Origin: a virus
Virus record (IMG/VR): IMGVR_UViG_3300025141_000746
Coordinates: 1 to 24,007 of that record
DNA: 24,007 nt
Direction: 5' to 3' (one strand)
The notes under the pieces are model-generated. The model was given only the letters and a program-made list of their open reading frames with translations, was not told the origin of the DNA and did no database searches. The position numbers and the translations under genes were made by a program. Below, one piece after another: positions 1,097 to 21,647 of this stretch; position 1 is the first letter of the stretch, and every line of letters begins with the position of its first letter.

Positions 1097-1120
1097 ACGA
1101 TCAACTAATCTCTTGATCGT
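1097..1120 (-). promoter_or_regulatory. Hairpin spanning the tubulin-like stop codon, 5' of gp32
   Basis: A perfect 8-bp inverted repeat, ACGATCAA / TTGATCGT, with the 8-base loop GAGATTAG. The TGA stop of the tubulin-like gene sits in the 3' arm. It is followed by about 27 unstructured A/U-rich bases carrying the gp32 SD. This could be a weak terminator, an mRNA end, or part of a gp32 translational operator like that of T4 gene 32, which is known to be a structured RNA followed by a single-stranded A/U-rich leader. No clear pseudoknot partner for the loop is visible. Confidence 0.5.
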
Positions 1121-1952
1121 CTAGTTGTAATTGTACCATAGATGAATGCTTAATGCAATAACAATATTTTTGTTCGTATGTGGTCTTAAAGACGCCGTAT
1201 GAAACGCTAACGTCTTCAGAGATCTTCGACTTCACAAAATTATTAATCTTCCTAAGAAGCGTACCGTCGTTCTTCAAGTCATCCTCATTGATACCATAGT
1301 AGTATACCACATCACGCACTCCTGTCAAGTCATAAAACCATTTTTCTTTTTCATCATCGTCTGACTCGACGTCGACGATACCAACGGTGCATATGCGGCT
1401 GATCTCTGATGGCCTTATGAAGTTTCCTATGACAGGCTCAGTGTGCTTGAAAACATTCATCATGTGTACCGTGTTTACGATCGCCTGATTGAGTGTTTCA
1501 TAATAACTGATGATTGACATATCTCCGATGCTTCTCTCGAGCATATTGTTATTGATAAGGATAACTCTCTCTAGTAGTCCAGAGCGAGCATATTCTTGTA
1601 AGACATTGCTAACTATTTTTTCTTGCTTTTTCTGATTCTCGCTCATTATTGACAGGTCGCCCTGAATATAGAGCACTGCCAAATTGTTATTCTTTAATTG
1701 TTCTAGAAGCCTCAGGGATCCGCCCGAAATGCTTCCAGCGCCGGCGACGACGACGATAACCTCCTCATCTTTAAACTTGAGCTTCTTTTTAAGATTTGGA
1801 AAATGTTCATCATACTCTTCATGGGTCTTTCTGTGTCTGATTGTAATGTCAGCATCTTTAGTCGTGTCAATACCGTACGTTTCGTACTGCGGAAACTTAG
1901 AAAAAACTTTCGCGATGTTGCAACCTGCTTTTCCAAGCCCCACTATTATCAC
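1101..1952 (-). CDS. Divergent tubulin/FtsZ-superfamily protein
   Basis: 283 residues that can be read against FtsZ from end to end. IIVGLGKAGCN (2-12) matches the first nucleotide loop (GVGGGGxN); YGIDT (26-30) matches the AINTD strand; VVVAGAGSISGGS (67-79) sits where the tubulin signature AGMGGGTGTG belongs; NNNMLE (134-139) matches the PNDRLL loop; residues 148-168 match helix H7; and YYYGINEDDL plus VSYGVFKTTYEQKYCYCI match the C-terminal domain strands (NITGGxDL and IIFGxVxDxxL). The signature loop is non-canonical, and the catalytic T7 loop (NxDFAD in FtsZ) reads GNFIRPSEI, without either aspartate. There is no long C-terminal tail. It starts at GTG, overlapping the MazG-like stop (GTGA). 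Phage relatives (PhuZ of jumbo phages, TubZ) make filaments; whether this one polymerises or hydrolyses GTP is unknown. The fold call is fairly secure, the role is not. Confidence 0.78.
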   Translation of the reverse strand: MIIVGLGKAGCNIAKVFSKFPQYETYGIDTTKDADITIRHRKTHEEYDEHFPNLKKKLKFKDEEVIVVVAGAGSISGGSLRLLEQLKNNNLAVLYIQGDLSIMSENQKKQEKIVSNVLQEYARSGLLERVILINNNMLERSIGDMSIISYYETLNQAIVNTVHMMNVFKHTEPVIGNFIRPSEISRICTVGIVDVESDDDEKEKWFYDLTGVRDVVYYYGINEDDLKNDGTLLRKINNFVKSKISEDVSVSYGVFKTTYEQKYCYCIKHSSMVQLQLDDQEIS

Positions 1953-8023: not shown

Positions 8024-8365
8024 TTACCCTGCCGCGACGATTCTTAAGATGCTTTCGAGTGGCATAGGAATATAAATGACATCGCCTGTTTGAATGTGTG
8101 CTTCGGTTGGTTTTCTATTAAACAGGGCAATGACCCACCAATATTGAGCAGCACCATAGTTCTCGATTGCAAGTTTATAAAACCGATCGCCGGTGGACCA
8201 GATGTGTGTCTTCTTTGTCATACCAGAAATTTCAGCAACCGTGGGATACTCAAAGGTGGGAGTATCATAATGGCGAATGCCCTTTACATGTCTTTCTTCA
8301 AAGATATTATCATAAAGCGGCTCTCGATTATAGAAGATTGTGCGGTAATCGTATCGTGTAGGCAT
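8024..8365 (-). CDS. gp53-like baseplate wedge protein with LysM domain
   Basis: 113 residues. The C-terminal half contains a LysM-type module: DRFYKLAIENYG, then WWVIALFNRKPTEAHIQTGDVIYIP, with GDVIYIP being the classic end of LysM. T4 gp53 (196 residues), which links neighbouring baseplate wedges, ends in the same domain, and short LysM baseplate proteins occupy this position in many myoviruses. The N-terminal ~45 residues (Tyr/Arg-rich) would carry the wedge contact. The start is ATG with SD GGAGG nine bases upstream, three bases after the preceding gene. The LysM domain here is structural rather than cell-wall directed. Confidence 0.75.
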   Translation of the reverse strand: MPTRYDYRTIFYNREPLYDNIFEERHVKGIRHYDTPTFEYPTVAEISGMTKKTHIWSTGDRFYKLAIENYGAAQYWWVIALFNRKPTEAHIQTGDVIYIPMPLESILRIVAAG

Positions 8366-8368
8366 CAG

Positions 8369-9205
8369 TTATTTGCCTCCGGTGCCTTCGAGTACGGCGC
8401 CTTGGTCTGACTGCTTGATCGGGTCGCCGGGATCACCGGTGATCTCGTCCTTCTCATAAATAGTGGTCTGGTCGGTTCGCGTGCCCGGAATGATGGCTGG
8501 AGCGGCATTGGGGAAAACTGCACCGTCTTTGCCAAAGCTATATTTGCCACTCTTTTCAGACCAACCGGTGAGATGCTTGTGCAGTACCGTAAAGTCTAGC
8601 GTAAGGCTCACAACTTTAGGTACATACAATCCCTTGGTGCCCTTTTCTGTCTTTATAAAATCGACCATTTTTGTCTTCGTAGAGGACCCCGTATCTAGCT
8701 CGGCTGGCATCTCACCATCAGTTACCTCTTTGTAACCTTGTCCACTTATAAACCCACCCTGGTTCATATCGGGGCTATAAGAGGCGCCGCCAAGAAACCC
8801 TATCAATTGAGAACCATCGGTAGAGTCGGATATCAAATTTGTCCAGCGCATTCCCAGAAGCGGGCCGGCCTTTAGCGTGTTTTGAATGTTGCGACCTGAG
8901 TTTTCATATACTGGGTATAAAAAAGAAATTAACTTATTTATCCTGGCTAGATTCTGCACCGCCTGTTCAGCGTCACCGGACACCACATCAAACCCTAGGG
9001 AGATCTGACGCTGAGTATTCTGGAACGTCGCCAGTGGATCCATTCTACCATAGACAGTTTCTGTATTCCAAGTAGAGGTGAACTGGTCCGAAAACTCTGT
9101 TACCCAACCGCGAAAATCAATCGTTTGTTTGGTGGCCAAATGAGTAATATAAATCGTAAAGAATGTATTCTCAATTAATCCTGGATCATAGCTAGCTGCT
9201 TGCAT
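8369..9205 (-). CDS. Baseplate tail-tube cap/initiator-like protein
   Basis: 278 residues. The N-terminal third contains FRGWVTEFSDQFTSTWN, then VYGRMDPLATFQNTQR and NLARINKLISFLYPVY (about residues 31-100). I associate this pattern with baseplate-tube junction proteins of marine T4-like phages (gp48/gp54 type, tube-like fold). A second beta-rich part (LYVPKVVSLTLDFTVLHKHLTGW, about 193-215) follows, then a polar Gly/Asp-rich tail. Such proteins cap the baseplate and start tail-tube polymerisation. The order tape measure - this gene - gp53-like - hub fits. It starts at ATG with SD GAGG seven bases upstream, preceded by a CTATTTATT motif. Assignment to gp48 versus gp54 is not possible by eye. 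Confidence 0.6.
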   Translation of the reverse strand: MQAASYDPGLIENTFFTIYITHLATKQTIDFRGWVTEFSDQFTSTWNTETVYGRMDPLATFQNTQRQISLGFDVVSGDAEQAVQNLARINKLISFLYPVYENSGRNIQNTLKAGPLLGMRWTNLISDSTDGSQLIGFLGGASYSPDMNQGGFISGQGYKEVTDGEMPAELDTGSSTKTKMVDFIKTEKGTKGLYVPKVVSLTLDFTVLHKHLTGWSEKSGKYSFGKDGAVFPNAAPAIIPGTRTDQTTIYEKDEITGDPGDPIKQSDQGAVLEGTGGK

Positions 9206-9221
9206 GGTGGTACCTCAATGT

Positions 9222-9230
9222 AATAAATAG
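9222..9230 (-). promoter_or_regulatory. CTATTTATT motif (putative late promoter) for baseplate genes
   Basis: CTATTTATT on the minus strand, 16 bases before the ATG of the tube-cap-like gene and after the tape measure stop. The bases that follow (ACATTGAGGTAC) match those after the copy at 12772-12780 (GTTGAGGTAC). It is one of six copies in front of structural transcription units. Confidence 0.5.
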
Positions 9231-9253
9231 AGTTGCGATAAGAATTTTATAAA

Positions 9254-12200
9254 TTAACGCAGGCCAATTTCTTTCTTGAACTCGGCGCCCTTGAGGACTT
9301 CCATCACGACATCATGCAACTCGCGCTCGCCGATCTTAACCAGAACAGAATGCTTGTTAAAGTTTACAACTGGTTTTGAAATTGTAGAGTCCTTGGCTTG
9401 CGCGGCCTTTGAGAGTCGTTCGTCAGACGGCCAAGGGAAGGGCGTGTCTTCGGTCTTGCCAGCTGCTGCGGCATCCATCCGCTTCTCAGTTGCCTCGCGG
9501 CCGGGGGCGTTGGTATCTGGCTTATACACCGTATCTATGGTTAGCGTGGCCGACTTGTTAAACTCTGTGAGTGCTTCGAGCTTCGATAGTCCGATGACCT
9601 TTGTTGCGCCAGCGAAGGCTAACAGCGCCGGGGTGAGATAAGCGAGGGCGGCTGCTGTTGCCAAGATTCCGAGGGCTGCAGCGCCGATGCCCATAAGGGC
9701 AGCAGAGAACGCAATAACCTGTGGGAGTACTGCTACAAAAGAGAATATAGATGCCTTAAGGCTCTCTGTTCCCGCAGCAACTAGGTTCATTCCAGTGCCG
9801 ACGGTCATCAAAGCCCCGGCAAAGACCCCTAACACGGTAGAGCCGATCATAAGTGGATAGGCTGCGAGGAGGAGAGCTACTGCGAGAGCTCCCAACCCTG
9901 CAGCGCCTACGGCCGCACCATAGGCAAGGGTCACTAGACTCATTCCTAATGCTCCGAAGGCCTTGGCCGTAGCAAATATTTGATCTGCTGGGATCTTGAA
10001 CAACTGTTCTACTAAAATCGCCAGGCCCTTGGCGGCCAGATTGATACCGAACCCTAAGAGCACAGCGGCAGCCCCTAGAGCAGTGATTAAGACTGCCGTG
10101 GCGACGAGGGCCCAGCCTGCCGCCGCGGCTGCGACGGAGGCGCCTACAAGGAAATAGACGGCTGCTGAGAATATTCCCATCCCAATGGCTGCCGCAATCA
10201 GGTTTGGGCCGTCCAGATCCTTAAATAGAGGTATCAGCTGGGCTAGGCCCAACGCGGCAAGATTGATACCAAATCCCATCAAGATGGCGGCGACACCGAT
10301 GGCGCCAATAACCGCTGCCATGGCCCAGAGCATCGGGGCTGCGGCAGTTGACATAACCGCGGCGATAACAATTGCTGCTATGGCAGTCGAGAAAAAGATA
10401 AGCGAAAGAGCTGCAGCAAAGATCTGGCCACCCTTGAGGTCGCCAAATGCGGCCACCAACAACGACATGCCTTTGGCAGCAAGGAAAATGCCGCCGCCAA
10501 TAAGTAAGAATGCGATACCTAGGGCGATCAGTGGACCAGCAGCAGTCAGACTAGCGGTGGCAAGGATATATAGCATTCCAGCGAACAGGGCGCCTACGAT
10601 CACCAGTGCGACAAGGGCGCCAGCGATCTCTCCTCCGGACAAATCTTTGAATGCTAGCACCAGGTAGGAAAGACCATATGCAGCCACCGCGATGCCAGCG
10701 CCGATCATCATGATTGCGGCGCCGAAAGCGAGGATTTCTTTATATGTACCCTTCACAGCGTTGCCGAGATCTCTGGCGCCTGTTGCTGTATTAGACAGGA
10801 AGCTACCAATCCCCTTTCCGGCTTCGCCCGCGTCGTCGCCGGACTTCTTGGCAGCTCCGCCGAGGGCCCCCAGCGTGGCCTGTACCGCGACGATCCCGGC
10901 GGCGGCTTTGTAGGCAATGACCGTTAGCAAGAGAAGCCCGCCAACAATAATGATGAGCCACTTGCCGAAGGGGTTTGTCATTATTTTGACCAGGAGGTCA
11001 ACAAACCAAGTAATTGCTTTTATGACTGGCTCTAGTGCCACAAACATAGAGTTAAAGGCGTTTTTTAGCTTATCTATTTGCTTTTGTGACCGCATGGCAG
11101 TTTCTTTAATTTCTTCTTGGCGCTTGATTTCCAGTTCTTCGGCTGCGGATAGGTTACCAAACATTCTTCGGGCTTCATCAACACCAACACCGAGTGCATC
11201 GGCAATTGCCAACTGCTCATACTTGCCCATATCTGAGAATAACTGTCCACTGGCATCCATCGACTCAGTTAACATTTCCAAACGTTCTGATTCAGAGGCA
11301 TTCAACATATCGATGGAGTTTAGGTACGGTCCACCCAAAATAGCGTTTAGGCGCCCAACCTTTCCTGCTGCACCCTCGAAAGTATCGAATGCTTTGCCGG
11401 CGATGCTAACTAGCTGGCTAACTTCGAGTCCAGTTGCCTTGGATTGCTTCTGGAGATCCTGGAAAACACCGACGACGTCCTCGCCGTGGAAGGCTAGCTG
11501 TTTTGCTACTGATGAGAATTCCTGAAAGACTACTGTGGTCGATTTGCCAAGACTTTGGGCTGTGTCTTGCAGGGTTTGGTTTAATTCACCAAGTTGAGTT
11601 TCATTAAATCCTAATGATTTTGTCGCTTGATCCCACATCTTGGCAGTGGATTCGAGTGGAACATTAAGTTCCTGCAACAGTGCAGCTTGTCCGCGGAGAG
11701 AATCGGCGGTGGATTTGTTCAGCGTGGTAAAACTCGACATCCCTTGATATAGGGCCGCGTTTGCTGCGCCGGCTTTCACCGCGTCGACGCCATATTCGCG
11801 CAGTTCGTTACGTGTCTGGGCAATGCCCGCAGTATAGTCTGTCGCCGTTCCTGTGGCCTTAACCATGGCGGCATTGGCGTCGGCTGTTGCTACAGCGATC
11901 GTCAAAAGCTTCTCTACTATGCCGGCAGCCATGGCGCCGCTCGTGAACATCTCCTTGATTCCGCTGCCAAGTCCTTTGAGTCCCTCTGCAGTACTTGGGA
12001 TCAGTTTGCTCATCGATCCCAAGATGCCGTTGACTGGGAGAAGAGCAGCCACCATTGACTTACCCTTAGTTTCGCCGAGGTCGAACTGAGTGTTTAGTTC
12101 TTTTGTTGCCCGGGCCCATTCGTTCATCTCGGCTGTAGACTCGAACGTCTGGGCGATGAATTCTCTTTGTTGTTTGAGTTGGCGCGCTTCAGCCGCTTCG

Positions 12201-12424
12201 AGTTTTCCGATGAGTGCTAGCTTCGCCTCGAGTCGCGCGACGTCGTCGGCCGCGGCTGCTTGCTGGCGGGCGATGAAATCCTTCTCTCCCTCTCCACTAC
12301 GCTGGGTGCCGCCGCCGCCAAGCGGAGATGAACCACCGCCGCCTTCGCCAGACGCTGCGGCCATACCCTTGAGTTCATCAAGAATCTTCTGTAATATGGC
12401 TGCCTGATCAGCGGCGTCGGTCAT
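9254..12424 (-). CDS. Tail tape measure protein
   Basis: 1056 residues, the longest ORF, lying after the tail chaperones as expected. The N-terminus (1-120) is helical with a Gly/Ser linker (GGGGSSPLGGGG). Residues 120-480 are Ala/Leu-rich helix with heptad-like spacing. From about 485 (KWLIIIVGGLLLLTVIAY) to about 985 there is a long run of hydrophobic segments arranged as about five repeats of ~72 residues, each carrying (F)GINLAAxGLxxL...FKDL. A polar tail with FPWPSDERLSKAA and a basic end follows. Tape measures set tail length and enter or cross the host membrane during injection; the hydrophobic modules fit that step. The start is ATG with a weak SD (AAAGGG), 12 bases after the preceding gene. 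Length against the ~1.5 Å per residue rule predicts a tail of roughly 150 nm. Confidence 0.85.
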   Translation of the reverse strand: MTDAADQAAILQKILDELKGMAAASGEGGGGSSPLGGGGTQRSGEGEKDFIARQQAAAADDVARLEAKLALIGKLEAAEARQLKQQREFIAQTFESTAEMNEWARATKELNTQFDLGETKGKSMVAALLPVNGILGSMSKLIPSTAEGLKGLGSGIKEMFTSGAMAAGIVEKLLTIAVATADANAAMVKATGTATDYTAGIAQTRNELREYGVDAVKAGAANAALYQGMSSFTTLNKSTADSLRGQAALLQELNVPLESTAKMWDQATKSLGFNETQLGELNQTLQDTAQSLGKSTTVVFQEFSSVAKQLAFHGEDVVGVFQDLQKQSKATGLEVSQLVSIAGKAFDTFEGAAGKVGRLNAILGGPYLNSIDMLNASESERLEMLTESMDASGQLFSDMGKYEQLAIADALGVGVDEARRMFGNLSAAEELEIKRQEEIKETAMRSQKQIDKLKNAFNSMFVALEPVIKAITWFVDLLVKIMTNPFGKWLIIIVGGLLLLTVIAYKAAAGIVAVQATLGALGGAAKKSGDDAGEAGKGIGSFLSNTATGARDLGNAVKGTYKEILAFGAAIMMIGAGIAVAAYGLSYLVLAFKDLSGGEIAGALVALVIVGALFAGMLYILATASLTAAGPLIALGIAFLLIGGGIFLAAKGMSLLVAAFGDLKGGQIFAAALSLIFFSTAIAAIVIAAVMSTAAAPMLWAMAAVIGAIGVAAILMGFGINLAALGLAQLIPLFKDLDGPNLIAAAIGMGIFSAAVYFLVGASVAAAAAGWALVATAVLITALGAAAVLLGFGINLAAKGLAILVEQLFKIPADQIFATAKAFGALGMSLVTLAYGAAVGAAGLGALAVALLLAAYPLMIGSTVLGVFAGALMTVGTGMNLVAAGTESLKASIFSFVAVLPQVIAFSAALMGIGAAALGILATAAALAYLTPALLAFAGATKVIGLSKLEALTEFNKSATLTIDTVYKPDTNAPGREATEKRMDAAAAGKTEDTPFPWPSDERLSKAAQAKDSTISKPVVNFNKHSVLVKIGERELHDVVMEVLKGAEFKKEIGLR

Positions 12425-12436
12425 TTAGGAAGCCCT

Positions 12437-12754
12437 TTAGTTTTTAAACGGCCAGCGTAAGCCTGTCTCAGACTCGAAAGCCCGGATGGACCTGTCGAGG
12501 TTGCTCTTGTTCGTCATCGTGGTGTGGTCTGCCAGTCCATGTTTCATATATGAATCCATATATCGCTTTTCGCCCTTGAGCGCGGCGAAAAAGGATTCTA
12601 TTTGTTTTTGTGTCCCCTTGATAGACACGGGAAAGTCAAAGCCGGCTTGATATAAGTCAATCAACATGCCTCTAACTCCCTGTGCGAATGCAGAACTGGG
12701 GTTTCGAAATTCGTTTATACTTTTGTCGTTTAAATCAATTACTACTTTTTCCAT
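12437..12754 (-). CDS. Conserved-looking small protein before the tape measure
   Basis: 105 residues, not recognised. It is soluble and mixed alpha/beta, with VVIDLNDKSINEF at the start, then FPVSIKGTQKQIESFFAALKGEKRYMDSYMKHG in the middle and GLRWPFKN at the end. The hydrophobic-strand-then-helix pattern suggests a compact domain. It has its own terminator-plus-motif region upstream (12772-12815) and an ATG with SD GGAG or GAGG, and lies 12 bases before the tape measure, so the two are likely co-transcribed. A role in tape measure folding or tail assembly is suggested only by position. Confidence 0.7.
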   Translation of the reverse strand: MEKVVIDLNDKSINEFRNPSSAFAQGVRGMLIDLYQAGFDFPVSIKGTQKQIESFFAALKGEKRYMDSYMKHGLADHTTMTNKSNLDRSIRAFESETGLRWPFKN

Positions 12755-12771
12755 CTGGAGTGTACCTCAAC

Positions 12772-12780
12772 AATAAATAG
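12772..12780 (-). promoter_or_regulatory. CTATTTATT motif (putative late promoter) for tape measure operon
   Basis: CTATTTATT on the minus strand, 17 bases before the ATG of the 105-residue gene and 15 bases after the terminator stem at 12796-12815, preceded by TATATATAA. It is followed by GTTGAGGTAC, as in the copy at 9222. Position directly after a terminator supports a promoter role. Confidence 0.55.
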
Positions 12781-12790
12781 TTATATATAA

Positions 12791-12815
12791 CAAAAGCCGC
12801 TCAAAACTGAGCGGC
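12791..12815 (-). terminator. Intrinsic terminator after tail chaperones
   Basis: On the minus strand the RNA folds into GCCGCTC - AGUUUU - GAGCGGC (7-bp perfect GC-rich stem), followed by UUUUGUU. It starts eight bases after the stop of the frameshifted chaperone frame at 12824, separating the sheath-tube-chaperone genes from the tape measure unit. Confidence 0.8.
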
Positions 12816-12823
12816 CCTTATCA

Positions 12824-13021
12824 TTATCTCTTGGATTTTGCTTTTCTCATAGCATCATCCGACGCTTTCTTCTCGTCTTCGAATTCTTTGATTAATCTTT
12901 TAACGAACCATCTTCTTAATTGTGTCGGAAGATTATATGCTTCGAATATTGACCAGCCGCCGTGGTGTTTTAGAATAAACAGTTCTTCGTAGACTACTTC
13001 TTGGTACTCGCTACTTAGGCC
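12824..13021 (-). CDS. Second frame of tail assembly chaperone, reached by +1 frameshift
   Basis: A 65-residue open frame, in +1 relative to the upstream chaperone gene. It reads GLSSEYQEVVYEELFILKHH, then GGWSIFEAYNLP, then LRRWFVKRLIKEFEDE and a Lys/Arg tail. It contains no usable start codon: the frame opens after a TGA at about 13035 and its only Met is seven residues before the end. The pattern (short helix, HGG-W/F-S, xxLPxxLRRWF, charged helix) looks like the short downstream chaperone frames of phage tails. The upstream frame ends at CAG TTT TTT TGG; a +1 slip (or -2) on the T7 run at 13022-13028 joins the two, giving a product of about 349 residues. A homopolymer sequencing error is the main alternative, though the fusion would still be the real protein. 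Confidence 0.72.
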   Translation of the reverse strand, partial: GLSSEYQEVVYEELFILKHHGGWSIFEAYNLPTQLRRWFVKRLIKEFEDEKKASDDAMRKAKSKR

Positions 13022-13874
13022 AAAAAAACTGTGCCGTCAACGGCATACCCACCTTCTCCAGATGATCACAGTTATCACAAGAAAACTCAAAGGATAGGTC
13101 GATATCGGGGACCAAATTCTCATATGTTGCTCGGATTTCTCTAGTAATTAGAGTCGGGCACTGCTCGATAAACTTCTTAAGCATCGATGCGTCTGTAACT
13201 TCGTTGACACGGACGATAACCGCTTCTAATTGATCGGTGATGTTGGCATCCGGAAGCTTAAGCTTCTTTCGCTTCTCACGCAGCTTCATAATACGGTGTT
13301 CGTCTTGGCCACTTAACAGGCGAACCTCAACTTCAAGATCATTATACTTTGAAAGGACAATCTGATAGTTGCCGTTGTCTAAAGTTACAACATTCTCGGG
13401 TACATCCGTCTCTGCCTTGGGTTCGATCTCACTTAAGTCGACTGAGCACTCCTGTGAAGTGCTGCAAGCGGGACATCCGACAGTAACTGAATACTCCGGG
13501 CCGAAACCTGTGATTCTTGCCACAAGCAACACGGCATTCTTGTCGCCAACCAATAGGTTTGATGCTTTTATCTTTTTATTAACAATTAGAGAGTCTAACA
13601 AACGATCGAGAGCAATGCCTTTTTTAATTAAAGCCTCTGAGGTAAGAATATCTTCCTCTTTTGCTGTCATGTGTCGGATTTCTAGGGAATTAACCCCGTG
13701 AAGTGGATGATTCTCTGGGTATAGCTCTCCCTTGCTGGGGAGGTCCACAAACTCTGTTGGGTTTATGAATGAAAATATGTCTGCTGTGTTGTTTTCTACA
13801 ATGGGGGGTGGAGGAGCGGATGCGTCCGGTTGGGGGGCACCCGTTCTCTCCGAGTTATTTCTTCTTTTTGACAA
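13011..13874 (-). CDS. gp26-type tail assembly chaperone/baseplate protein with zinc ribbon
   Basis: 287 residues in the zero frame. A Pro-rich N-terminus is followed by INPTEFVDLPSKGELYP, HPLHG and IRHMTAKEEDILTSEALIKKG (about 38-85), the conserved start of the T4 gp26 family, and LLVGDKNAVLLVARI. Two cysteine pairs, C134/C137 and C266/C269, probably hold one zinc. T4 gp26 is classed as a baseplate hub assembly protein; the position here, between tube and tape measure, is that of the tail assembly chaperone. The start codon is TTG with SD AGAAGG six bases before; an in-frame TGA two codons upstream excludes extension, and the next Met is residue 69. The gene ends in AQFFWPK just after the T7 slip site, so it would make both this short form and a frameshifted long form. 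Confidence 0.8.
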   Translation of the reverse strand: MSKRRNNSERTGAPQPDASAPPPPIVENNTADIFSFINPTEFVDLPSKGELYPENHPLHGVNSLEIRHMTAKEEDILTSEALIKKGIALDRLLDSLIVNKKIKASNLLVGDKNAVLLVARITGFGPEYSVTVGCPACSTSQECSVDLSEIEPKAETDVPENVVTLDNGNYQIVLSKYNDLEVEVRLLSGQDEHRIMKLREKRKKLKLPDANITDQLEAVIVRVNEVTDASMLKKFIEQCPTLITREIRATYENLVPDIDLSFEFSCDNCDHLEKVGMPLTAQFFWPK

Positions 13875-13940
13875 ATGTCACCTTCTCTTTCTCTTTTTAG
13901 GAAGCTTCTTTGGGCTGTGAGTTTAAACTTCTTTGGACTA

Positions 13941-14564
13941 CTAGTCCTCTTCCTCTTTCGTCGTTTTGACTTTGACCGGACCGGGGTCGTTTGCACCGGA
14001 ACCATACCATGCCCAATCATACCTGAAAGTTATATCAATATTAAGTAAATCTTCTGTTGAATAGTCCAGGTCGCCAAACTTAACGTTTGTGATCCAAGGA
14101 TTTTTCAGTTCCCAAGTACCAATAAGTTCCCCTGACCCGCCTAGTTCGCGGATCCTCACATCGCCAAGAGCATCAAGAGCATCAAGTTTGTTGGGAGTAC
14201 CCGGGCCGACCGTGGATTCCCCGCCTTTGCCGGTGTTCCCGCCGAAGATGTCGCTCTGTTGAGTCGGGTCGAGGTACCCAGACTGGTACAGAGCCTCATA
14301 AAGAAGCGTGTTGCCATCGGGGTCGACGGCGTTAATAAGTTGGACAGTCACCGGGTCCCACGTAAGTGCTCCGGGATACCAATATGTGTTTCCCAAGAAC
14401 TTGTGTTCGGTCTCGCCGATTGAGTAGGCGGGCTTTGTAACCGTTTTGGCTAAATACTGTTTATAAGCTTCACCGCTAGGTGCGTTAGCGCCCAAAAGGG
14501 GAAGATTCAATAAAAATCTATGTGCTCTGCGCGGTTCTGATTTTGCGTCGTTCCAAAATGCCAT
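13941..14564 (-). CDS. Tail tube protein (gp19-like)
   Basis: 207 residues. The first half (RRAHRFLLNLP, then VTKPAYSIGETEHKFLGNTYWYPG and LTWDPVTVQLI) and the last strands (WELKNPWITNVKFGDLDYSTEDLLNIDITFRYDWAWY) are typical of the T4 gp19 tail tube family, where a beta-barrel monomer stacks as hexameric rings inside the sheath. T4 gp19 has 163 residues; the extra length lies in a Gly-rich loop around residues 105-130 (GGNTGKGGESTVGPGT). The C-terminus is very charged (KVKTTKEEED). The start is ATG with SD AGGAG; a terminator and a CTATTTA motif lie between it and the sheath gene, giving the tube separate high-level expression. Confidence 0.85.
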   Translation of the reverse strand: MAFWNDAKSEPRRAHRFLLNLPLLGANAPSGEAYKQYLAKTVTKPAYSIGETEHKFLGNTYWYPGALTWDPVTVQLINAVDPDGNTLLYEALYQSGYLDPTQQSDIFGGNTGKGGESTVGPGTPNKLDALDALGDVRIRELGGSGELIGTWELKNPWITNVKFGDLDYSTEDLLNIDITFRYDWAWYGSGANDPGPVKVKTTKEEED

Positions 14565-14590
14565 GTTCTTTAATCTCCTGTTAGATCTAA

Positions 14591-14599
14591 TTTAAATAG
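14591..14599 (-). promoter_or_regulatory. CTATTTAAA motif (putative late promoter) for tail tube
   Basis: CTATTTAAA on the minus strand, directly after the GC-rich hairpin at 14601-14622 and 26 bases before the tube ATG. The leader that follows contains the palindrome TTAGATCTAA and then the SD AGGAG. Confidence 0.5.
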
Positions 14600-14600
14600 T

Positions 14601-14622
14601 GCGAGGGGGATAAACCCCCCGC
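14601..14622 (-). terminator. Terminator hairpin after tail sheath
   Basis: The minus-strand RNA folds GCGGGGGG with CCCCCUCGC (8 pairs including one G-U) around a loop of about six bases, nine bases after the sheath stop. The tail is ACUAUUU rather than a pure U-tract, so termination may be partial. Confidence 0.6.
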
Positions 14623-14630
14623 TTTATTTT

Positions 14631-17519
14631 TTAATCTACGAATGCGGCTCCCGTTCTTGTAATGTTGAAGTCAATCGCGATGTATTCGATAGCGCGTGTG
14701 GGCTTCAAGAAGATCTGGGCGTACATGATATTGCGATCGACCAGATCGGGAGTTGTCGTAGTATTGTCAAGCACCACCTTGAAGTCAGAGAGACCGAAGT
14801 TGGACTTAACAGACTGCAAGAATGGATTGACTGTTGCAGTAAATCGATCCCAAGTAACCTGAATGTTTGGATCGAACAAGATGCCTGCTGCCATCCGCGA
14901 GATGCGCTTCTTCACGAAGATCATCAAGCGACGCACGTTAATGCGGTCGAGGGCCGAAGGCGTAACCTGCAGCGTCTTCTGACCGAAGATCACAATTCCC
15001 TCTGCGGGGAACTTGGCAATCGGGTTAACGTTGGCACCGTAGAGGTCATCACGGTCCTTGCGGCGCAGCTGGTGGGCTACGTCGACGACCGGGATACCAG
15101 CGGAGCCTTCTGTCAGTCCACCGCGGTTGAAGCCGGCTGGTGCGAACCAAACCTGCGTCTTGCGCTGGGAGCTAGAGAAGGTACCGAGTGCTGCGACAGA
15201 CGGCGGGATCCAGATGTTGGCACCACTTAGGGTGTCACGTGCGCGGAGCCACGGGTAGAATGTGCAGCCGTAAGAGGAGTTGAGGCCTCTGTCTCGCATA
15301 GCGTTAACAGTCTGCAGGATCTCGCTAGATGTGTTCTTGCGACGGTCGGCTGCTGACTCGTTTGACTGCTCGCGGGGCAAGTAGCCCTGAGCGACGTCGA
15401 TGATGGCTAGTGCGTCGGCGCGGTCTTCACAAATGTTGATGAGGTTCGTTGTCAAACCCTCATGGCGGAGACCCGGCATTGTTGCCAGGTTCATCTCAAC
15501 CACTTCCGGGTCGGCAACTGAATCCATCGCTCTGCGGATTGAGTTGAACGAGTAGCTCTTCTTGTCGTCGATAGCAGAGATGCCGTCGAGGATTCGGTTG
15601 TTGAACGGATCCATTTCTGTAATGTTCACTCCGTCAAATCCGCCGTACATCGGGACCGTGAAGCGGTCGTAGCCTGCGTCTAGGACACCCGTGACACTGT
15701 TGACGAATGTAAGAGAGTTGGTTGCGTGTGAGCCACTGACCCATACACCAGCTGAGCCAGAGACGTCATCAAGTGTAAACTCAACGGATCGCTCGCGTCC
15801 TGTGGCAACACCGTGCATAGAGCCGACGATTCCGCCGCGGGGGCGAAGAAGGTCGATTGTTGACTTGGCGAAGCGGGTGGAACCAGCGTCCACCGCGGTC
15901 TGGAAGCCGAAGTAAGCATCCGTGCGGTTGCTTAGGTTACCGGCAGAAGCGCTGACGCGCAATTCGGGTGCCGGGTATAGGATCTTGACTGCAAGGTCGT
16001 GGTTCGTGGCTGCAGACGCGGTGATGGCGAAAACAGAACCTGTAACAAAGGCGCCACTGGCGAGGTCCGGAAGTCCGCCGCCATTGGAACCAGAAACCCA
16101 GTTGCCGGTTGTGCTAGCACCTGTGTCCGAGTCAAGCTCCTCATCGTCATACTTGACCATACCGCGGAAACCATAAGGAAGTAGGCTTGGCTTGGCGAGG
16201 CCTGCATCTACATCGGAATCCATCTCCACGCGGATAAACTTGGAGTTGTTTTGCCAGTCGCCCTTCTGGACGTAGCGACGCTCGTCTTCGTCCCAAGATA
16301 TGTACTGGTTACCAATCTTGCGCGCAACGTAGTTGAGCGAATCAGGGTTAAGATCACAGGAGTTGAACTGCTCGACGACGCGGACTGTGTTATCGGAGTC
16401 GCTTAAGGAGCGGACGACGACACTGAAGGATCCGTAGCCGGACTCGCCGGTAGCGGAGGGCTGGATGTCCTGGATTGAAACCTTGATGTTGCGGTTAGAC
16501 CAGTCGCCCGGGTTGTCGAGGGCGTGAATAGCAAGCAAGCCAACCGGGGCAGCCGAAGGAGACGTACGATTGGAGATGATCGTGGGCGTCTGTGCTGACG
16601 ATGCGTCTGCACCTGATCCTGCGAAATTAGAACCGGAGGTGTCGGTGTTGTGCTGTAATTTTACAACAGCGCCGAACGTCCGGCTGAGCGCGGAGCCTTC
16701 CTTAGTGATGTTTGCCTTAAGGTGACGATCAAATGTCTCGCCCAAGAAGTAATTCTCTGTCGTGCCACCACTCGCGACGACATCGGAGTTAGTCATCTGT
16801 GGGTTTGTGTTGAGGACCTTGCGGATGTAGCGAGAGCTGTTCTCAGTAAAGTTGATTGTTGATGTTGTCTCGTCGGAGCCGTTCTTGATAAGCATCTTGA
16901 ACTCATAGGAAGTACCTGTATCGGTAGCGACCATAATGCTGCCGGTGTTAGCGACCGGAGAAATTACGGCTGCGCCCTTGCCGAGCGCACCGGAGCCAGA
17001 AGCAATCAGGTTACCAGACAGTTCGATTGTAGTACCCGAGGCGCCATAAATGATGGCAGCCAAAGCACCTGTCAACTGGATGGGGGCTCCCGCGGCGCTA
17101 GCTACCGAGTCTTCAAAAACGAATAAGCCATATGCGTTGTCCATGGTCCAGCCGGCTTCTCCAGCGGATCCTGCTGCAGGGCCACCGTCAGCAGTGGTCT
17201 GTGTTCCGAGGAGGCGAATGTAGGTTAGAGGGGAGCTGTTTTTGAGGTATGCCTGCGCGGCGTACGCTCCATAAGTGGTAGCGGATTTGTCCGTACCCTC
17301 GCGCCACACATCGTCACCTGCGCCGCCAGCAGCGGGGGTACCGAATACGTTAACAAACTCTTCAAACGAGTTCACTGTGATTGGGCGAAGGGAAGGTCCC
17401 TTTTCGGCGCGTCCAATGACGACCGGGCCGATGCCTGCCGGGGAAGCAGGAATCTGAGAGTTGTCGATCTCGTTGACGAAAACTCCGGGGGATACAAATT
17501 TAAACTTTTTAACTGACAT
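14631..17519 (-). CDS. Contractile tail sheath protein (gp18-like)
   Basis: 962 residues. The N-terminus KFVSPGVFVNEIDNSQIP, then GPVVIGRAEKGPSLRPITVNSFEEFVNVFG, is diagnostic of contractile sheaths. The C-terminal third matches as well: YPWLRARD, WIPPSVAALG, WFAPAGFNRGGL, FPAEGIVIFGQKTL, RRLMIFVKKRI and ILFDPN, ending in ITRTGAAFVD. T4 gp18 has 659 residues, so about 300 extra residues are inserted in the middle (roughly 110-600), a Ser/Gly/Ala/Thr-rich, beta-type region likely to be surface domains. Sheath subunits form helical rings around the tube and contract on infection. The start is ATG with SD AGGAG, preceded by a short 5' hairpin and a CTATTTA motif. Confidence 0.93.
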   Translation of the reverse strand: MSVKKFKFVSPGVFVNEIDNSQIPASPAGIGPVVIGRAEKGPSLRPITVNSFEEFVNVFGTPAAGGAGDDVWREGTDKSATTYGAYAAQAYLKNSSPLTYIRLLGTQTTADGGPAAGSAGEAGWTMDNAYGLFVFEDSVASAAGAPIQLTGALAAIIYGASGTTIELSGNLIASGSGALGKGAAVISPVANTGSIMVATDTGTSYEFKMLIKNGSDETTSTINFTENSSRYIRKVLNTNPQMTNSDVVASGGTTENYFLGETFDRHLKANITKEGSALSRTFGAVVKLQHNTDTSGSNFAGSGADASSAQTPTIISNRTSPSAAPVGLLAIHALDNPGDWSNRNIKVSIQDIQPSATGESGYGSFSVVVRSLSDSDNTVRVVEQFNSCDLNPDSLNYVARKIGNQYISWDEDERRYVQKGDWQNNSKFIRVEMDSDVDAGLAKPSLLPYGFRGMVKYDDEELDSDTGASTTGNWVSGSNGGGLPDLASGAFVTGSVFAITASAATNHDLAVKILYPAPELRVSASAGNLSNRTDAYFGFQTAVDAGSTRFAKSTIDLLRPRGGIVGSMHGVATGRERSVEFTLDDVSGSAGVWVSGSHATNSLTFVNSVTGVLDAGYDRFTVPMYGGFDGVNITEMDPFNNRILDGISAIDDKKSYSFNSIRRAMDSVADPEVVEMNLATMPGLRHEGLTTNLINICEDRADALAIIDVAQGYLPREQSNESAADRRKNTSSEILQTVNAMRDRGLNSSYGCTFYPWLRARDTLSGANIWIPPSVAALGTFSSSQRKTQVWFAPAGFNRGGLTEGSAGIPVVDVAHQLRRKDRDDLYGANVNPIAKFPAEGIVIFGQKTLQVTPSALDRINVRRLMIFVKKRISRMAAGILFDPNIQVTWDRFTATVNPFLQSVKSNFGLSDFKVVLDNTTTTPDLVDRNIMYAQIFLKPTRAIEYIAIDFNITRTGAAFVD

Positions 17520-17534
17520 TAGTTATGGTCTCCT

Positions 17535-17562
17535 ACATTGCGAAAATGTTCAAAGTAAATAG
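17535..17562 (-). promoter_or_regulatory. CTATTTACTT motif and leader hairpin for tail sheath
   Basis: CTATTTACTT (17553-17562, minus strand) lies 33 bases before the sheath ATG. The leader then forms ACATT-TTCGC-AATGT (17535-17549), immediately followed by the SD AGGAG. It resembles the arrangement before the scaffold gene. Confidence 0.48.
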
Positions 17563-17583
17563 TACTTAATAGGCTGAATAGAA

Positions 17584-18528
17584 TTATTCTCTGTAAAATC
17601 CATCTTTTGTTGATCTGGGGATGTCTCCCATTACAGTTCTTTCTCTTCCGATCTTGAACTCGACCGCGTTTTGGCGTCGTACGATTTTAGGCTTTTCTTG
17701 GTTTTCGCCCTCGCCTACCAGATACCCCAAAACATCGATTTTAACTGTGGTTTCATAGTTTCTCTGCTTCATTCCTAGGGCCGCTTTGTTAGAAGCGTCT
17801 GCAAATGATCCGTCGATAAAGACTTCATAAAAATGACCTTCGTTCTCGATTCTCTTGGGCATCCGGGAGTTTCCGGAGATCGTAAAGAATGGGCTTATAA
17901 GCGAGTTGAGCTGCTGTTGGTATTCAGTACGCAAAGAAATCTCATACGATACCTTAACCCAAACCGGGAGAGGTATCGTTATTGTTTCGTAAACTGTCTT
18001 GGATGCGGACATGTTTCTTTTGTTTGTATTTTTGGATTTGGTCGCTACATCTCCATTAATGCCGCGGCCGCGAGATGCGGCAGCATTTTCAAATTCGGCC
18101 GTCTTCTTTTGGTTTATTTGGCGCGCGATGGTGATAACCCCACCCTTTGCATCGGGTTCTGGATACATGTTGGCATAAACGGTGCCGCGGAAGTTTGGCT
18201 CTTTTACAACCGAGGACCGATTGATCGTTATTAACGGCAGGATAAGCGTCTCTTCAGAATCTCTTATGTCCTTGTTTTGCTTTATTTGATAGGCGCGTTC
18301 TGCGGTGACCCATAAAACAGGAACCTTTGTGAATCCTTTATTGGATGTCACCGATAAGTTAAGATCTTCATCAATGAAGCGAAGCATTGCTCCATCAATT
18401 GTTTCAAGATTTGAAGGGGCGAACTCTATCTCTCCTAAATGGGAAGCAACATTCTTATCTCCCACATAATCAAACTTATTCTTTTCTTTATTTTTTATCT
18501 CTTTTTCTGTTCTTTTGCTTCTCGACAT
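17584..18528 (-). CDS. Probable neck/tail-completion protein (gp14/gp15 position)
   Basis: 314 residues. Basic N-terminus (SRSKRTEKEIKNKEKNK), then VPVLWVTAERAYQIKQNKDIRD and LILPLITINRSSVVK (about 70-105). After a polar, variable loop (about 130-165) come ITIPLPVWVKVSYEISLRTEYQQQLNSLISPFF (about 178-210) and VKIDVLGYLVGEGENQEKPKIVRRQNAVEFKIGRER. I associate this pattern with neck/tail-terminator proteins of marine T4-like phages, and it sits between the gp13-like neck gene and the sheath. The Arg/Thr-Glu-Tyr-Gln-Gln segment probably faces the ring interface. The gene starts at ATG with SD AGGAT and lies four bases after the gp13-like stop. Whether it corresponds to gp14 or gp15 cannot be fixed by eye. 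Confidence 0.6.
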   Translation of the reverse strand: MSRSKRTEKEIKNKEKNKFDYVGDKNVASHLGEIEFAPSNLETIDGAMLRFIDEDLNLSVTSNKGFTKVPVLWVTAERAYQIKQNKDIRDSEETLILPLITINRSSVVKEPNFRGTVYANMYPEPDAKGGVITIARQINQKKTAEFENAAASRGRGINGDVATKSKNTNKRNMSASKTVYETITIPLPVWVKVSYEISLRTEYQQQLNSLISPFFTISGNSRMPKRIENEGHFYEVFIDGSFADASNKAALGMKQRNYETTVKIDVLGYLVGEGENQEKPKIVRRQNAVEFKIGRERTVMGDIPRSTKDGFYRE

Positions 18529-18532
18529 TTAA

Positions 18533-19801
18533 TTATCCTACGTAAATACCAGTTGGCACGTTCTTAAGGATCTTCTCGGTTGCGTCTTGCATTGATGAAT
18601 CCTGTACTGTCAACTTCTCGTATGTCATCTCATCCAAGAGAGTCTTCAGCTCGTTTCTCAGGTTGTCTTGCTCGGTGCGGGCCTGCGACAATAGATCAGA
18701 CGCATTTAGTGTGACGCTCTCACCTGGGATCGGGACCGTTGAAAACTTTCCTCTAACTTGTCCCAACATCTCTTTTGCGAGAGCGAGAGCAAATCGACGA
18801 ATCCATTGCTTTCCGATTGAGTTAATGTTCTCAAATGGAATATTTTGGAACGGGAGGGTGTTCATATTGTTGATACCGTCCGTACCCTGATTACCTCGAC
18901 CGGTCTCCTCCCAAGGCTGATATTCTTTATCAATTGTGAATTGAACCCAGAACTTTTCGGGACTGGTGGCATCCGGTTGAGGATATATACGCAACATATT
19001 GTCTTTGATCTCATAGGAGTAGTGGGATATCCGGGTCCACAGGGCATCTTCATATGCCATGGCCTGAAGCTTGTTCTGCCAGGCCGGCACTATCTCAAAC
19101 GTTGAGTCATCGGCGTATTGTCCATACGTTCTCATATTGCCCACAACCGAGAAGCCGCCATAATAACCATAAAATCTCCACATTGCACGGGGAGTCCTAA
19201 AGAACACTTTACGAATAATAAGCCTCTTGTCTTTTATCTTTCCGTAATATGGGACCGCGGTGTCGGTCGCAGATGATGCTGATAAAATAGTTTGCAGATC
19301 ATAATCTTGTTGTTGGCTCACGCGGTCCACAGACGCTGAGTAGATGGGAACTAGGCCGCCCATACCAGTTTCTGTCGCCAGGCCTTCTGAGATGCGTCGG
19401 ACGTATCCGTAATCAAATCGCGGATAGTTTAGGGCAACATTGGACCCCGAGAGGGCATCACCCTCTACAATTTGTCCGTTCTGATCAAATGAAGCTGTTG
19501 CGGCACCCAAAAAGGTAGACAGAGAGTTTTTGCTTTGATGTAGATTAATCAGATAGGAATATTCCAGAACTGATTCTTCGTATGCCGCGTATACATTACC
19601 TTCTGCCAGTTCGATATCCAAGATATCTCCGCCTAGCTTCTTGTAAGTGTATGCAACTTGATCTGCTGCACCCGAAAGAAACGCGTTCGACTCCGCATAC
19701 ATTCCAAATGGAAGTGTTGCGGCAACTTTTGAAATGCTGCCGGTGGCAGCCAGAATGTTGGCATTAGACGTTGATGCTGGCTGAAGATTGGGGATTGCCA
19801 T
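18533..19801 (-). CDS. Neck protein (gp13-like, head completion)
   Basis: 422 residues. Recognisable blocks are LPFGMYAESNAFLSGAADQV (about 30-50), YAAYEESVLEYSYLINLHQSKNSLSTFLG (about 72-100), a Trp/Arg/Tyr-rich centre (RAMWRFYGYYGG), and WIRRFALALAKEMLGQVRGKFSTVPIPG followed by LNASDLLSQARTEQDNLRNELKTLLDEM at the C-terminus. These match gp13-type neck proteins of T4-like phages, a connector ring under the portal that lets the tail attach. T4 gp13 has 309 residues, so this form is longer. The start is ATG with SD GAGG at the end of a TATAAATAG hairpin arm. Between it and the capsid gene are the terminator at 19835-19864 and a CTATTTA motif, so it is independently expressed. Confidence 0.75.
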   Translation of the reverse strand: MAIPNLQPASTSNANILAATGSISKVAATLPFGMYAESNAFLSGAADQVAYTYKKLGGDILDIELAEGNVYAAYEESVLEYSYLINLHQSKNSLSTFLGAATASFDQNGQIVEGDALSGSNVALNYPRFDYGYVRRISEGLATETGMGGLVPIYSASVDRVSQQQDYDLQTILSASSATDTAVPYYGKIKDKRLIIRKVFFRTPRAMWRFYGYYGGFSVVGNMRTYGQYADDSTFEIVPAWQNKLQAMAYEDALWTRISHYSYEIKDNMLRIYPQPDATSPEKFWVQFTIDKEYQPWEETGRGNQGTDGINNMNTLPFQNIPFENINSIGKQWIRRFALALAKEMLGQVRGKFSTVPIPGESVTLNASDLLSQARTEQDNLRNELKTLLDEMTYEKLTVQDSSMQDATEKILKNVPTGIYVG

Positions 19802-19813
19802 GTGGAGTTCCTC

Positions 19814-19834
19814 TATTTATACACTACTAAATAG
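19814..19834 (-). promoter_or_regulatory. CTATTTAGT motif with inverted TAAATAG arm before neck gene
   Basis: On the minus strand CTATTTAGT (19826-19834) starts directly after the capsid-gene terminator, 24 bases before the ATG. Its complement TAAATAG follows at 19813-19819, making a 7-bp inverted repeat whose second arm contains a perfect T4 late-promoter core, TATAAATA, 12 bases before the ATG. Which of the two is the promoter is unclear; the CTATTTA copy has the position seen elsewhere. Confidence 0.5.
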
Positions 19835-19864
19835 AAAGCCCCGCCTCAAAAGAGGCGGGGCTTT
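19835..19864 (-). terminator. Strong terminator after major capsid gene
   Basis: A perfect 13-bp stem (AAAGCCCCGCCTC / GAGGCGGGGCTTT) with a four-base loop, 28 bases after the capsid stop codon. On the minus strand it ends in CUUUCUAUUUAG; on the plus strand in CTTTCACTATTTTGACC. Its A/U-flanked symmetric form could work in both directions. Confidence 0.9.
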
Positions 19865-19892
19865 CACTATTTTGACCTTACGTCGGTTTATG

Positions 19893-21647
19893 CTAGACTA
19901 GGCTTTTAACAACAACTAGACCATACATGTCAGGACGCACCATTTTCTTGGCGTAACGGGTCATGACACCCTTACGAGGCACAAAGTCCTCGACGCCGAA
20001 GATCGTCGGTGTAGTCTGCAGCGGCACATAAGGTGCATACACGTAACCACTCTCAAGGAAGGAACTACCACGGCGGCCGACAAGAATCAACTCGCGAGGG
20101 AAGTAAGGATCGACAAGAATGTCGAACTTCTTCGAAAGCGAACCAACCTTAACAGCACCCGCGTCGCCGCGATCGCTATCAGCGGTCACGTTAGCACGGA
20201 AGCCAGCAGTGAACTCAAGGACGTTGGCAACTTCGGGTCCGCAGACGACGAAGTTAGCAGCACCACGGAGAGTCTTGCGGTGGATCTGAGCGGAGACATC
20301 ATTGATTGTCTCAATGAGGGTCTCGTACCACTCAGACACGTTACCGGTGAAGTCAGGGGCACCATTGGCACCAATTGCTTCACCAGTCTCGCGGTTCAGG
20401 AAATCACCTGGGGAGCGGGACCAGTAACGAACACCAGCGGTTGCACCACGGACGAGGTCCTCAAGGATCTCGCGATCGATCTCAAGAGCAATCTGCTCAG
20501 AGAGGATCTGGGTCAACTCAACCTCAGCATCAAGGTTGTGGTAGGCATTGAGATCTTGTCCCAATTCCGGAGTCCACTTAGCCTTGAGCTTCTTGGTGAT
20601 AGCTGTGACAGCCACGGAATCAACCTTGATGTCGATCTCGGGAATGTCATCACTGCCTTCGAGTCCCCAGAGGGGCTGAGCGAGGACAGAACCAATTGCA
20701 CCACCCGTGCCACTGAAGTTGTCAGTGATGGGGAAGGACGCAGTGAGGTCAGCGCCGCCGAGGAAGTCGCCTAGGGTGGTCTCAGTGTCATTACCATCAG
20801 TGATCAGCGTGAGCAGAACTTGTCCTGCTGTCACTGGATCCTGACGGGTGAGACGACGCACGAAGATACCCGTTGTCAAGTCAGCATTGTTGGCAAGCTG
20901 AAGGCGGAGCGCAACAAAGTCATCTGTGTTGAACTGCGCCCCTACTAGGTCCGACTCGGGGAGCGAACCGATAGCGAAAGCTGAGCCGGAAGCAATATCC
21001 GGATCAAACTGTAGGATGCCGGGCAACTCGTAATCCGAGTCGTTCGAGCCACCTGCGGGCCATACTGGCACACCATTGGCACCTACGGTACCGGAGACGC
21101 GGACAGTAATATCGTCCATAACGAGGGAACCCGTCGGAGACGAGTAACCGTTGTTGAGGGCGTAAGGACCACGCTCGGCGTTAACTCCGGAGAGCTGAAC
21201 ACCGCCGGTGATCTGTGAACCCACAACCCCACCACCATACAGCGATGTATCTACGGGGTATCCTAGACGGGGATCAGGCGCACTGCCTTCGGCGCCGCCG
21301 CCGATCTCACTGGAAACAGTGAAGTCGAGGAAGAAGATGAGGCCCGAGGGCAAGCTCATCGGCTGAACGCTAACGAGATCGTTAGCAATCAAGTTGCCGA
21401 ATACACGGCGAACGAGAGGGAATGCGACAGCCGCAAAGCCCTCAACGTCTCCACCACTCATGGATGAAGACTCACGTAGTAGCTCTTTTGCCTGATTCTC
21501 AAGCAATCGTGCCATACTATTCCGAGCGGAGTCGTCGCCGATACCCTCTAGAAGACCTGTGTTTTCCCACTTGTTAATGAGAGCAGCACCTTCTGTAGAG
21601 AGGTCGCGGTTGACGATACCTTCGGTTAATTTCTGTACAATAGACAT
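19893..21647 (-). CDS. Major capsid protein (gp23-like)
   Basis: 584 residues. The N-terminus INKWENTGLLEGI and MARLLENQAKELLRE (24-59), then FPLVRRVFGNLIANDLVSVQPMSLPSGLIFFLDF, is characteristic of T4 gp23. The prohead protease of T4 cuts after (I/L)XE; L57-R58-E59|S60 sits at the position of the T4 gp23 site (E65), so a ~59-residue propeptide is predicted. The C-terminal half (LTQILSEQIALEIDREIL, FVVCGPEVANVLE, ILVDPYFPRELILVGRRG, GYVYAPYVPLQTTPTI and RYAKKMVRPDMYG) is the conserved HK97-fold P-domain region. T4 gp23 has 521 residues. It starts at ATG with a strong SD AGGAGG, 30 bases after the scaffold gene, and ends in a strong terminator. It assembles with scaffold and portal into the prohead. 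Confidence 0.95.
   Translation of the reverse strand: MSIVQKLTEGIVNRDLSTEGAALINKWENTGLLEGIGDDSARNSMARLLENQAKELLRESSSMSGGDVEGFAAVAFPLVRRVFGNLIANDLVSVQPMSLPSGLIFFLDFTVSSEIGGGAEGSAPDPRLGYPVDTSLYGGGVVGSQITGGVQLSGVNAERGPYALNNGYSSPTGSLVMDDITVRVSGTVGANGVPVWPAGGSNDSDYELPGILQFDPDIASGSAFAIGSLPESDLVGAQFNTDDFVALRLQLANNADLTTGIFVRRLTRQDPVTAGQVLLTLITDGNDTETTLGDFLGGADLTASFPITDNFSGTGGAIGSVLAQPLWGLEGSDDIPEIDIKVDSVAVTAITKKLKAKWTPELGQDLNAYHNLDAEVELTQILSEQIALEIDREILEDLVRGATAGVRYWSRSPGDFLNRETGEAIGANGAPDFTGNVSEWYETLIETINDVSAQIHRKTLRGAANFVVCGPEVANVLEFTAGFRANVTADSDRGDAGAVKVGSLSKKFDILVDPYFPRELILVGRRGSSFLESGYVYAPYVPLQTTPTIFGVEDFVPRKGVMTRYAKKMVRPDMYGLVVVKSLV

Follow-up and report, generated by a model that had tools for sequence, protein, structure and literature searches.

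A predicted tubulin/FtsZ-fold protein encoded in the DNA replication gene block of uncultured Far-T4-like phages

The stretch of DNA analysed here, which we call the window, is a virus record of 24,007 bases representing a genome fragment, and all 20 of its main ORFs lie on one strand. Read along that strand, the T4-type structural genes are followed by a 434-aa ORF of unassigned function, a short family A DNA polymerase (PolA), a 75-aa ORF, a MazG-like gene, the gene that is the subject of this work (TUB), a gp32-like single-stranded DNA-binding protein (SSB) and a 62-aa Hc1-like protein (Table 1). A first-pass annotation had proposed that TUB is a compact tubulin/FtsZ-family protein of 283 residues, coupled to the MazG-like gene. 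The ORF is present on the minus strand, and its GTG start sits in the stop of the upstream MazG-like ORF, the two sharing the 4-bp overlap GTGA; the plus strand opposite TUB is stop-rich. The motifs highlighted in the same annotation can all be read in the translation, namely GLGKAGCN, AGAGSISGGS (residues 70–79), NNNMLE (134–139), GIN-DD (220–225) and YGVF-T (252–257).

Table 1 Coordinates of genes in the window and of segments within TUB. Conservation counts for the TUB segments refer to 95 representatives at 75% identity.
Feature	Position	Strand	Remarks
T4-type structural block: gp53-like wedge, hub, tail tube, sheath, neck, gp23-like major head protein	8024–21647	−	
Short family A DNA polymerase (PolA), 395 aa	2487–3674	−	Polymerase part; no exonuclease domain matched
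MazG-like / all-alpha NTP pyrophosphohydrolase-like, 105 aa	1949–2266	−	ExxE 45/48, ExxD 57/60 kept
TUB, compact protein with predicted tubulin/FtsZ fold	1101–1952	−	GTG start, 283 aa
gp32-like ssDNA-binding protein (SSB)	293–1069	−	
62-aa histone H1-like Hc1-domain protein	44–232	−	Strong Pfam match (2.6e-21); beside SSB in many relatives
T1 glycine loop GLGKAGCN	1917–1940	−	Residues 5–12; G5, G7, G10 in 94/95; N12 not near-invariant
T2 loop with D29	1848–1874	−	Asp 91/95, rest Asn; matched to FtsZ NTD
T4-position loop AGAGSISGG	1719–1745	−	Residues 70–78; GxGx[IV]S[GA], relaxed form of GGGTG[ST]G
T6 loop with N135	1536–1556	−	92/95; aligned with FtsZ and TUB2 it is the putative guanine-site Asn
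H7 helix	1446–1505	−	Residues 150–169; Y151 (Y65/F13/H10 of 95), N155 93/95; [YF]xxxN guanine motif
T7 position	1392–1445	−	Residues 170–187; no conserved NxDxx[DE], no H8 helix; R186 88/95
C-terminal activation-domain-like part, S7–S10	1143–1394	−	YYY[GA]I, SYGVF.T.Y
Subclade-specific tail ending DDQEIS	1104–1130	−	Predicted disordered, pLDDT < 50

The first-pass annotation also assigned the gene to a T4-type phage and to a replication block, and both assignments hold: the window encodes head, neck, sheath, tube, hub and gp53-like wedge proteins, and TUB is flanked by PolA and SSB genes in the window and in its relatives. The order of the block is PolA, MazG-like, TUB, gp32-like SSB, RecA, 5′ exonuclease and DnaB. 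The SSB gene comes directly after TUB in 91 of 98 cases (104 distinct contigs), 95 of the 104 contigs have PolA at a distance of one to three genes upstream, and a MazG-like gene is the direct upstream neighbour in 81 of the 99 contigs that have an upstream gene. Among 142 loci found via SSB or PolA, a non-random set that has many contigs in common with the earlier scans, 130 carry TUB and the other 12 contigs end before the TUB slot. Synteny ties TUB to replication, and does not demonstrate direct contact with the replisome. Several features of the neighbours deserve mention in their own right. PolA (alignment A5) keeps the Asp of motif A and the HD of motif C, the usual Glu of HDE being Ala or Ser. 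The family assignment of the MazG-like protein is weak, with the Pfam dATP/dGTP pyrophosphohydrolase matching 2 of 11 members at a best E of 0.03. In the related contigs L057, L207, L212 and L059, TUB and SSB are separated by an ORF of ~320 aa that we read as a DNA methyltransferase. The 165-kb contig G001 holds RecA, 5′ exonuclease and DnaB, also ribonucleotide reductase and, besides the short family A polymerase, a bacterial-type PolIII alpha subunit of 1146 aa with a PHP domain (L252:1316-4756).

In a gp23 tree of 8 sequences, from which T4 itself was left out and in which the RM378 branch is long, the window sequence groups at 100/100 with RM378 (Rhodothermus), immuto (Flavobacterium) and Mel-JY01 (Microcystis), apart from the cyano- and exo-T4 sequences. 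Judged by this marker, the window phage belongs on the Far-T4 side of the T4-type phages. Published host predictions for Far-T4 phages point to Bacteroidota (PMC7198788, PMC13037479); the window and G001 contain no tRNA for tRNA-based host prediction. No TUB match was found anywhere in RM378, immuto, Mel-JY01 or the 484-kb LR756508, although the last three share the order PolA...SSB-RecA-exonuclease-helicase (SSB and PolA by HMM). Since these cousins share the block but lack TUB, parsimony suggests, without a date, that TUB entered the block, or was lost around it, within the wider group. Between PolA and SSB, Mel-JY01, immuto and LR756508 carry an unrelated family of 129–151 aa with the motif HRKK..NT.YTIN (L481:6867-7256, L482:1346-1801, L483:9785-10174), and a 428-aa hypothetical protein beside SSB in Mel-JY01, considered as a candidate, is not a TUB homologue. 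Literature searches, which covered open-licence papers, turned up no tubulin described from a Far-T4 phage, and papers on the group (PMC4360716, PMC7198788) mention neither tubulin nor FtsZ.

The TUB family itself is large and constrained. Relatives in IMG/VR numbered 88 in a first scan and 163 in a second, on alignment A1, and a scan with a broader alignment (A7) reached at least 593 viral loci; divergent members share 33–43% identity. More than 100 distinct homologues, together with strong purifying selection (dN/dS ~0.01–0.1 in close pairs with measurable dS), establish TUB as a real gene. Searched against 50,697 phage records, the window TUB and the relative L366 had no match and L319 had chance-level matches only. 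The sole match in GTDB genomes lies in a WOR-3 MAG (L573, CP070664.1), and we rejected it as a chromosomal gene: it is a piece of a phage replication block with N-gaps on either side, apparently misplaced during scaffolding. A search for a TUB paralogue among the neighbour genes found none. One relative (G008:C1:57596-58432) lies in a 572-codon frame with a single internal TAG, possibly reflecting TAG recoding or read-through.

Searches of Pfam, PHROGs, NCBIfam and, by sequence, the PDB did not identify TUB. Among 43 family members, the Pfam TrkA_N profile matches 32 (best E 8.8e-6) and Tubulin (PF00091) matches three (best E 0.011), and no member, divergent ones included, reaches the PF00091 gathering cut-off. 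Alignment of the TUB profile with an FtsZ set by hhalign gave P 0.03–0.07, near noise, and the TUB–FtsZ profile score of 23.6 was reached by one of 200 column shuffles. These results raise the question of whether the tubulin likeness is a modelling artefact and TUB belongs with the ordinary NAD(P)-binding Rossmann proteins of the TrkA_N/dehydrogenase type; the GxGxxG motif and D29 at the end of strand 2 would also fit an NAD site. The first-pass annotation had named better scores for another Rossmann-type family as evidence against its proposal, and at the sequence level TrkA_N does outscore Tubulin. In the window TUB, however, neither profile is above cut-off, the sub-threshold TrkA_N match covers residues 2–34, and the match to E. 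coli TrkA, which scores near FtsZ, spans just 17 residues of GxGxxG. A full-domain match to TrkA_N or to an NAD(P)-binding Rossmann protein was found neither in sequence nor among the best 50 fold matches, whereas the match to the tubulin fold is global.

An AlphaFold2 model of TUB from the 43-sequence alignment reached a pLDDT of 88.7 and a pTM of 0.88. Compared with the PDB by Foldseek, it gave 607 matches at E ≤ 1e-3, and FtsZ and TubZ structures account for every one of the best 50 of the 607 (best E 3.7e-13, probability 1.00, TMq 0.60–0.70); since the alignments span ~300–366 columns, both domains are covered. Among viral predicted structures, the top match (E 5.2e-12, TMq 0.74) comes from an uncultured Caudovirales phage and is named 'FtsZ Cell division GTPase'. 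A relative with ~54% identity, L076, was modelled from 10 sequences at a pLDDT of 71, with the GTPase half alone confident, and its five best fold matches are FtsZ. The TUB model contains the Rossmann-like GTPase domain, the H7 core helix and the C-terminal activation domain that define the superfamily, and its strand-helix order through H7 and S7–S10 is that of FtsZ. Structure prediction, the check proposed for the tubulin/FtsZ assignment, is therefore in its favour: TUB almost certainly adopts the two-domain tubulin/FtsZ fold as modelled, and belongs to the superfamily by this predicted fold, which would not have emerged from sequence methods alone. Given that the full-length model, and not a glycine motif, matches FtsZ and TubZ in the best 50 of 607 PDB hits, we consider an NAD(P)-binding Rossmann protein very improbable and largely refuted.

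Within this fold, the nucleotide pocket of TUB seems to be kept, and the parts that normally burn GTP seem to be lost. Profile alignments of weak statistics place N135 at the guanine-site Asn, and Y151xxxN155 at the [FY]xxxN motif, of FtsZ and of a second phage tubulin described below (TUB2); residue 151 is Tyr or Phe in 78 of the 95 representatives. Eukaryotic tubulin puts Asn206, Tyr224 and Asn228 to the same guanine-site use. Because the TUB–FtsZ sequence link is near noise, these pocket equivalences could be off by at least one residue; and since a few divergent members lack Y151 or N155 (e.g. L356), guanine binding may not be universal. The NNNMLE motif assigned to T6 is present as stated, but residue 135 alone of its three Asn is conserved. 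The strict T4 signature GGGTG[ST]G does not occur in TUB, its fourth position being fully variable, and the stretch from T2 to S4 is shorter than in FtsZ, so that no segment clearly corresponds to the T3 gamma-phosphate loop. Residues 170–187, at the T7 position where FtsZ and tubulin have their catalytic acid, contain no conserved acid (E183 in 45/95, D176 in 22/95). The losses at T3, T7 and H8 had escaped the first-pass annotation. The reported absence of a C-terminal tail proved half right: TUB has no long FtsZ-type linker, but a short peptide, DDQ[DE]I[SG], is kept in ~41 of 43 sequences of the window's subclade, while about half of the wider-family representatives have no aligned residues there. 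Further near-invariant residues are Q22, Y23, Q119, Y121, R123, S124, H163, M164, R186, T189, T257, Y259 and Y265. Since TUB lacks a conserved T7 acid, departs from the strict T4 signature and stays below the PF00091 cut-off, we do not file it as an FtsZ, TubZ, PhuZ or PF00091 GTPase.

TUB shares with FtsZ (PDB 4dxd, 1fsz, 2r6r) the two-domain fold, the loop order, the glycine-rich T1, the T6 Asn and the [FY]xxxN of H7, at ~13% identity in the fold alignment; it differs in having no T3 of FtsZ length, a relaxed T4, no T7 acids, no H8 and no long linker, and in not being a cell-division gene. TubZ of Bacillus plasmids and Clostridium phage c-st (PDB 2xka) shares the fold, but TUB is shorter, lacks the T7 acids and has no recognised TubR-like partner; compared with TubZRC by gene neighbours alone, those of TUB are the MazG-like, PolA, SSB and Hc1-like genes. 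PhuZ (phiKZ TubZ) of the nucleus-forming jumbo phages is likewise a phage-encoded tubulin fold, with an acidic C-terminal tail as in the window's TUB subclade, yet TUB has no detectable similarity to phiKZ PhuZ (gp39; hhalign score 14.6, at or below column shuffles against FtsZ), lacks the T7 Asp, and resides in the replication block of Far-T4-like genomes (long contigs of 148–194 kb). It is conceivable that TUB nevertheless assembles, like PhuZ or TubZ, into conventional dynamic GTPase filaments by which phage DNA or particles are moved or centred, since its fold matches include TubZ protofilament structures and PhuZ assembly needs a C-terminal acidic tail (PMC3678025). However, the T7 catalytic Asp is kept in PhuZ and TubZ (PMC3678025), whereas TUB has neither a conserved acid there nor H8. 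With T3, the T7 acids and H8 lost and no TubR-like neighbour recognised, we regard a dynamic filament of this kind as quite unlikely.

Phages in need of a dynamic filament could instead use TUB2, in which T7 is kept. TUB2 is a 364-aa ORF (L484:7387-8481; G006:C1:103389-104477, minus strand) on the 166-kb contig G006, which also holds the TUB locus L375. Its motifs are canonical, with a GGGTGS signature and T7 QxFDSKDL; it passes the PF00091 cut-off in three contigs and aligns with FtsZ by hhalign at a probability of 97 (E 3.9e-11). At least 107 viral stretches contain a relative of TUB2, and no match was found in phage records. Both proteins have a tubulin GTPase domain, TUB by its model, but TUB2 has intact T4 and T7 and lies outside the replication block. 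TUB is also present on 5 of 12 long TUB2 contigs, and TUB2 on 2 of 9 long TUB contigs, in one of them as just a fragment at the contig end. A profile alignment of TUB with TUB2 extends over 193 columns with T1, T4, T6 and H7 in register (P 0.01), a weak but sensible bridge at the level of sequence. Tentatively, TUB may be a tubulin relative that has left the GTPase polymer cycle to become a core part of the replisome or replication compartment in a marine T4-type lineage of wide occurrence, and that in some phages, together with the canonical TUB2, forms a two-tubulin cytoskeleton linked to DNA replication, outside the nucleus-forming jumbo phages.

For TUB itself, we propose a model in which a divergent, compact tubulin/FtsZ relative acts as a guanine-nucleotide-binding, non-hydrolysing scaffold for the phage replisome, and we put its probability at about one half. 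According to this model, TUB would have become a fixed part of the replication module in a marine Far-T4-like phage lineage, and would be co-expressed with SSB, PolA and the nucleotide pyrophosphohydrolase. It would bind GTP, GDP or another guanine nucleotide without the usual polymerisation-driven GTPase cycle, and may form a static or nucleotide-gated scaffold, such as a short filament, a ring or a capping subunit, that holds or positions the replisome or ssDNA–SSB intermediates.

The coupling to the MazG-like gene invites a different reading, in which TUB is a guanine-nucleotide sensor or regulator that works with the MazG-like enzyme, senses GTP/dGTP or an alarmone and tunes the supply to PolA without forming a polymer. 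The GTGA overlap, the frequent position of the MazG-like gene directly upstream, its retained catalytic ExxE/ExxD residues and the loss of the polymer-specific T3 and T7/H8 from TUB would all suit such a role. Yet overlap and adjacency are usual in phage operons, some loci (L060, L065, L076, L167, L375) have PolA directly upstream of TUB with no MazG-like gene between, and TUB keeps an entire two-domain tubulin fold, which exceeds a sensor's needs; we think this role somewhat unlikely. Alternatively, TUB might disable host division by binding FtsZ ends and capping or poisoning the Z-ring. Its fold is FtsZ-like, and an FtsZ filament might be capped or frozen by a subunit that docks with its nucleotide face but has no T7 acids. 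However, even in highly divergent family members TUB stays locked among the DNA replication genes, and the DDQDI tail, the sole candidate docking peptide, is confined to part of the family; the phage FtsZ inhibitors known to us are small and lineage-specific. The strict slot and the selection on TUB favour a role in replication over FtsZ poisoning, which we consider unlikely.

The phage tubulins known to date are dynamic GTPase filaments, found chiefly in the nucleus-forming jumbo phages and in a small number of plasmid-like ones. In an uncultured marine lineage that is very common, TUB is an apparently obligatory companion of PolA and SSB, and it no longer has the catalytic elements by which the mechanism of the tubulin family is defined. 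If it acts in replication, the tubulin fold would here be used as a replisome part, and the family would serve as a natural experiment on the tubulin elements that assembly requires when there is no hydrolysis. The assignment names hundreds of proteins that had no annotation and supplies a marker for the phage lineage. Among records labelled as phage that do carry ftsZ, Acinetobacter phage MD-2021a, Listeria and Enterococcus wastewater contigs and fecal scaffolds look like bacterial contamination.
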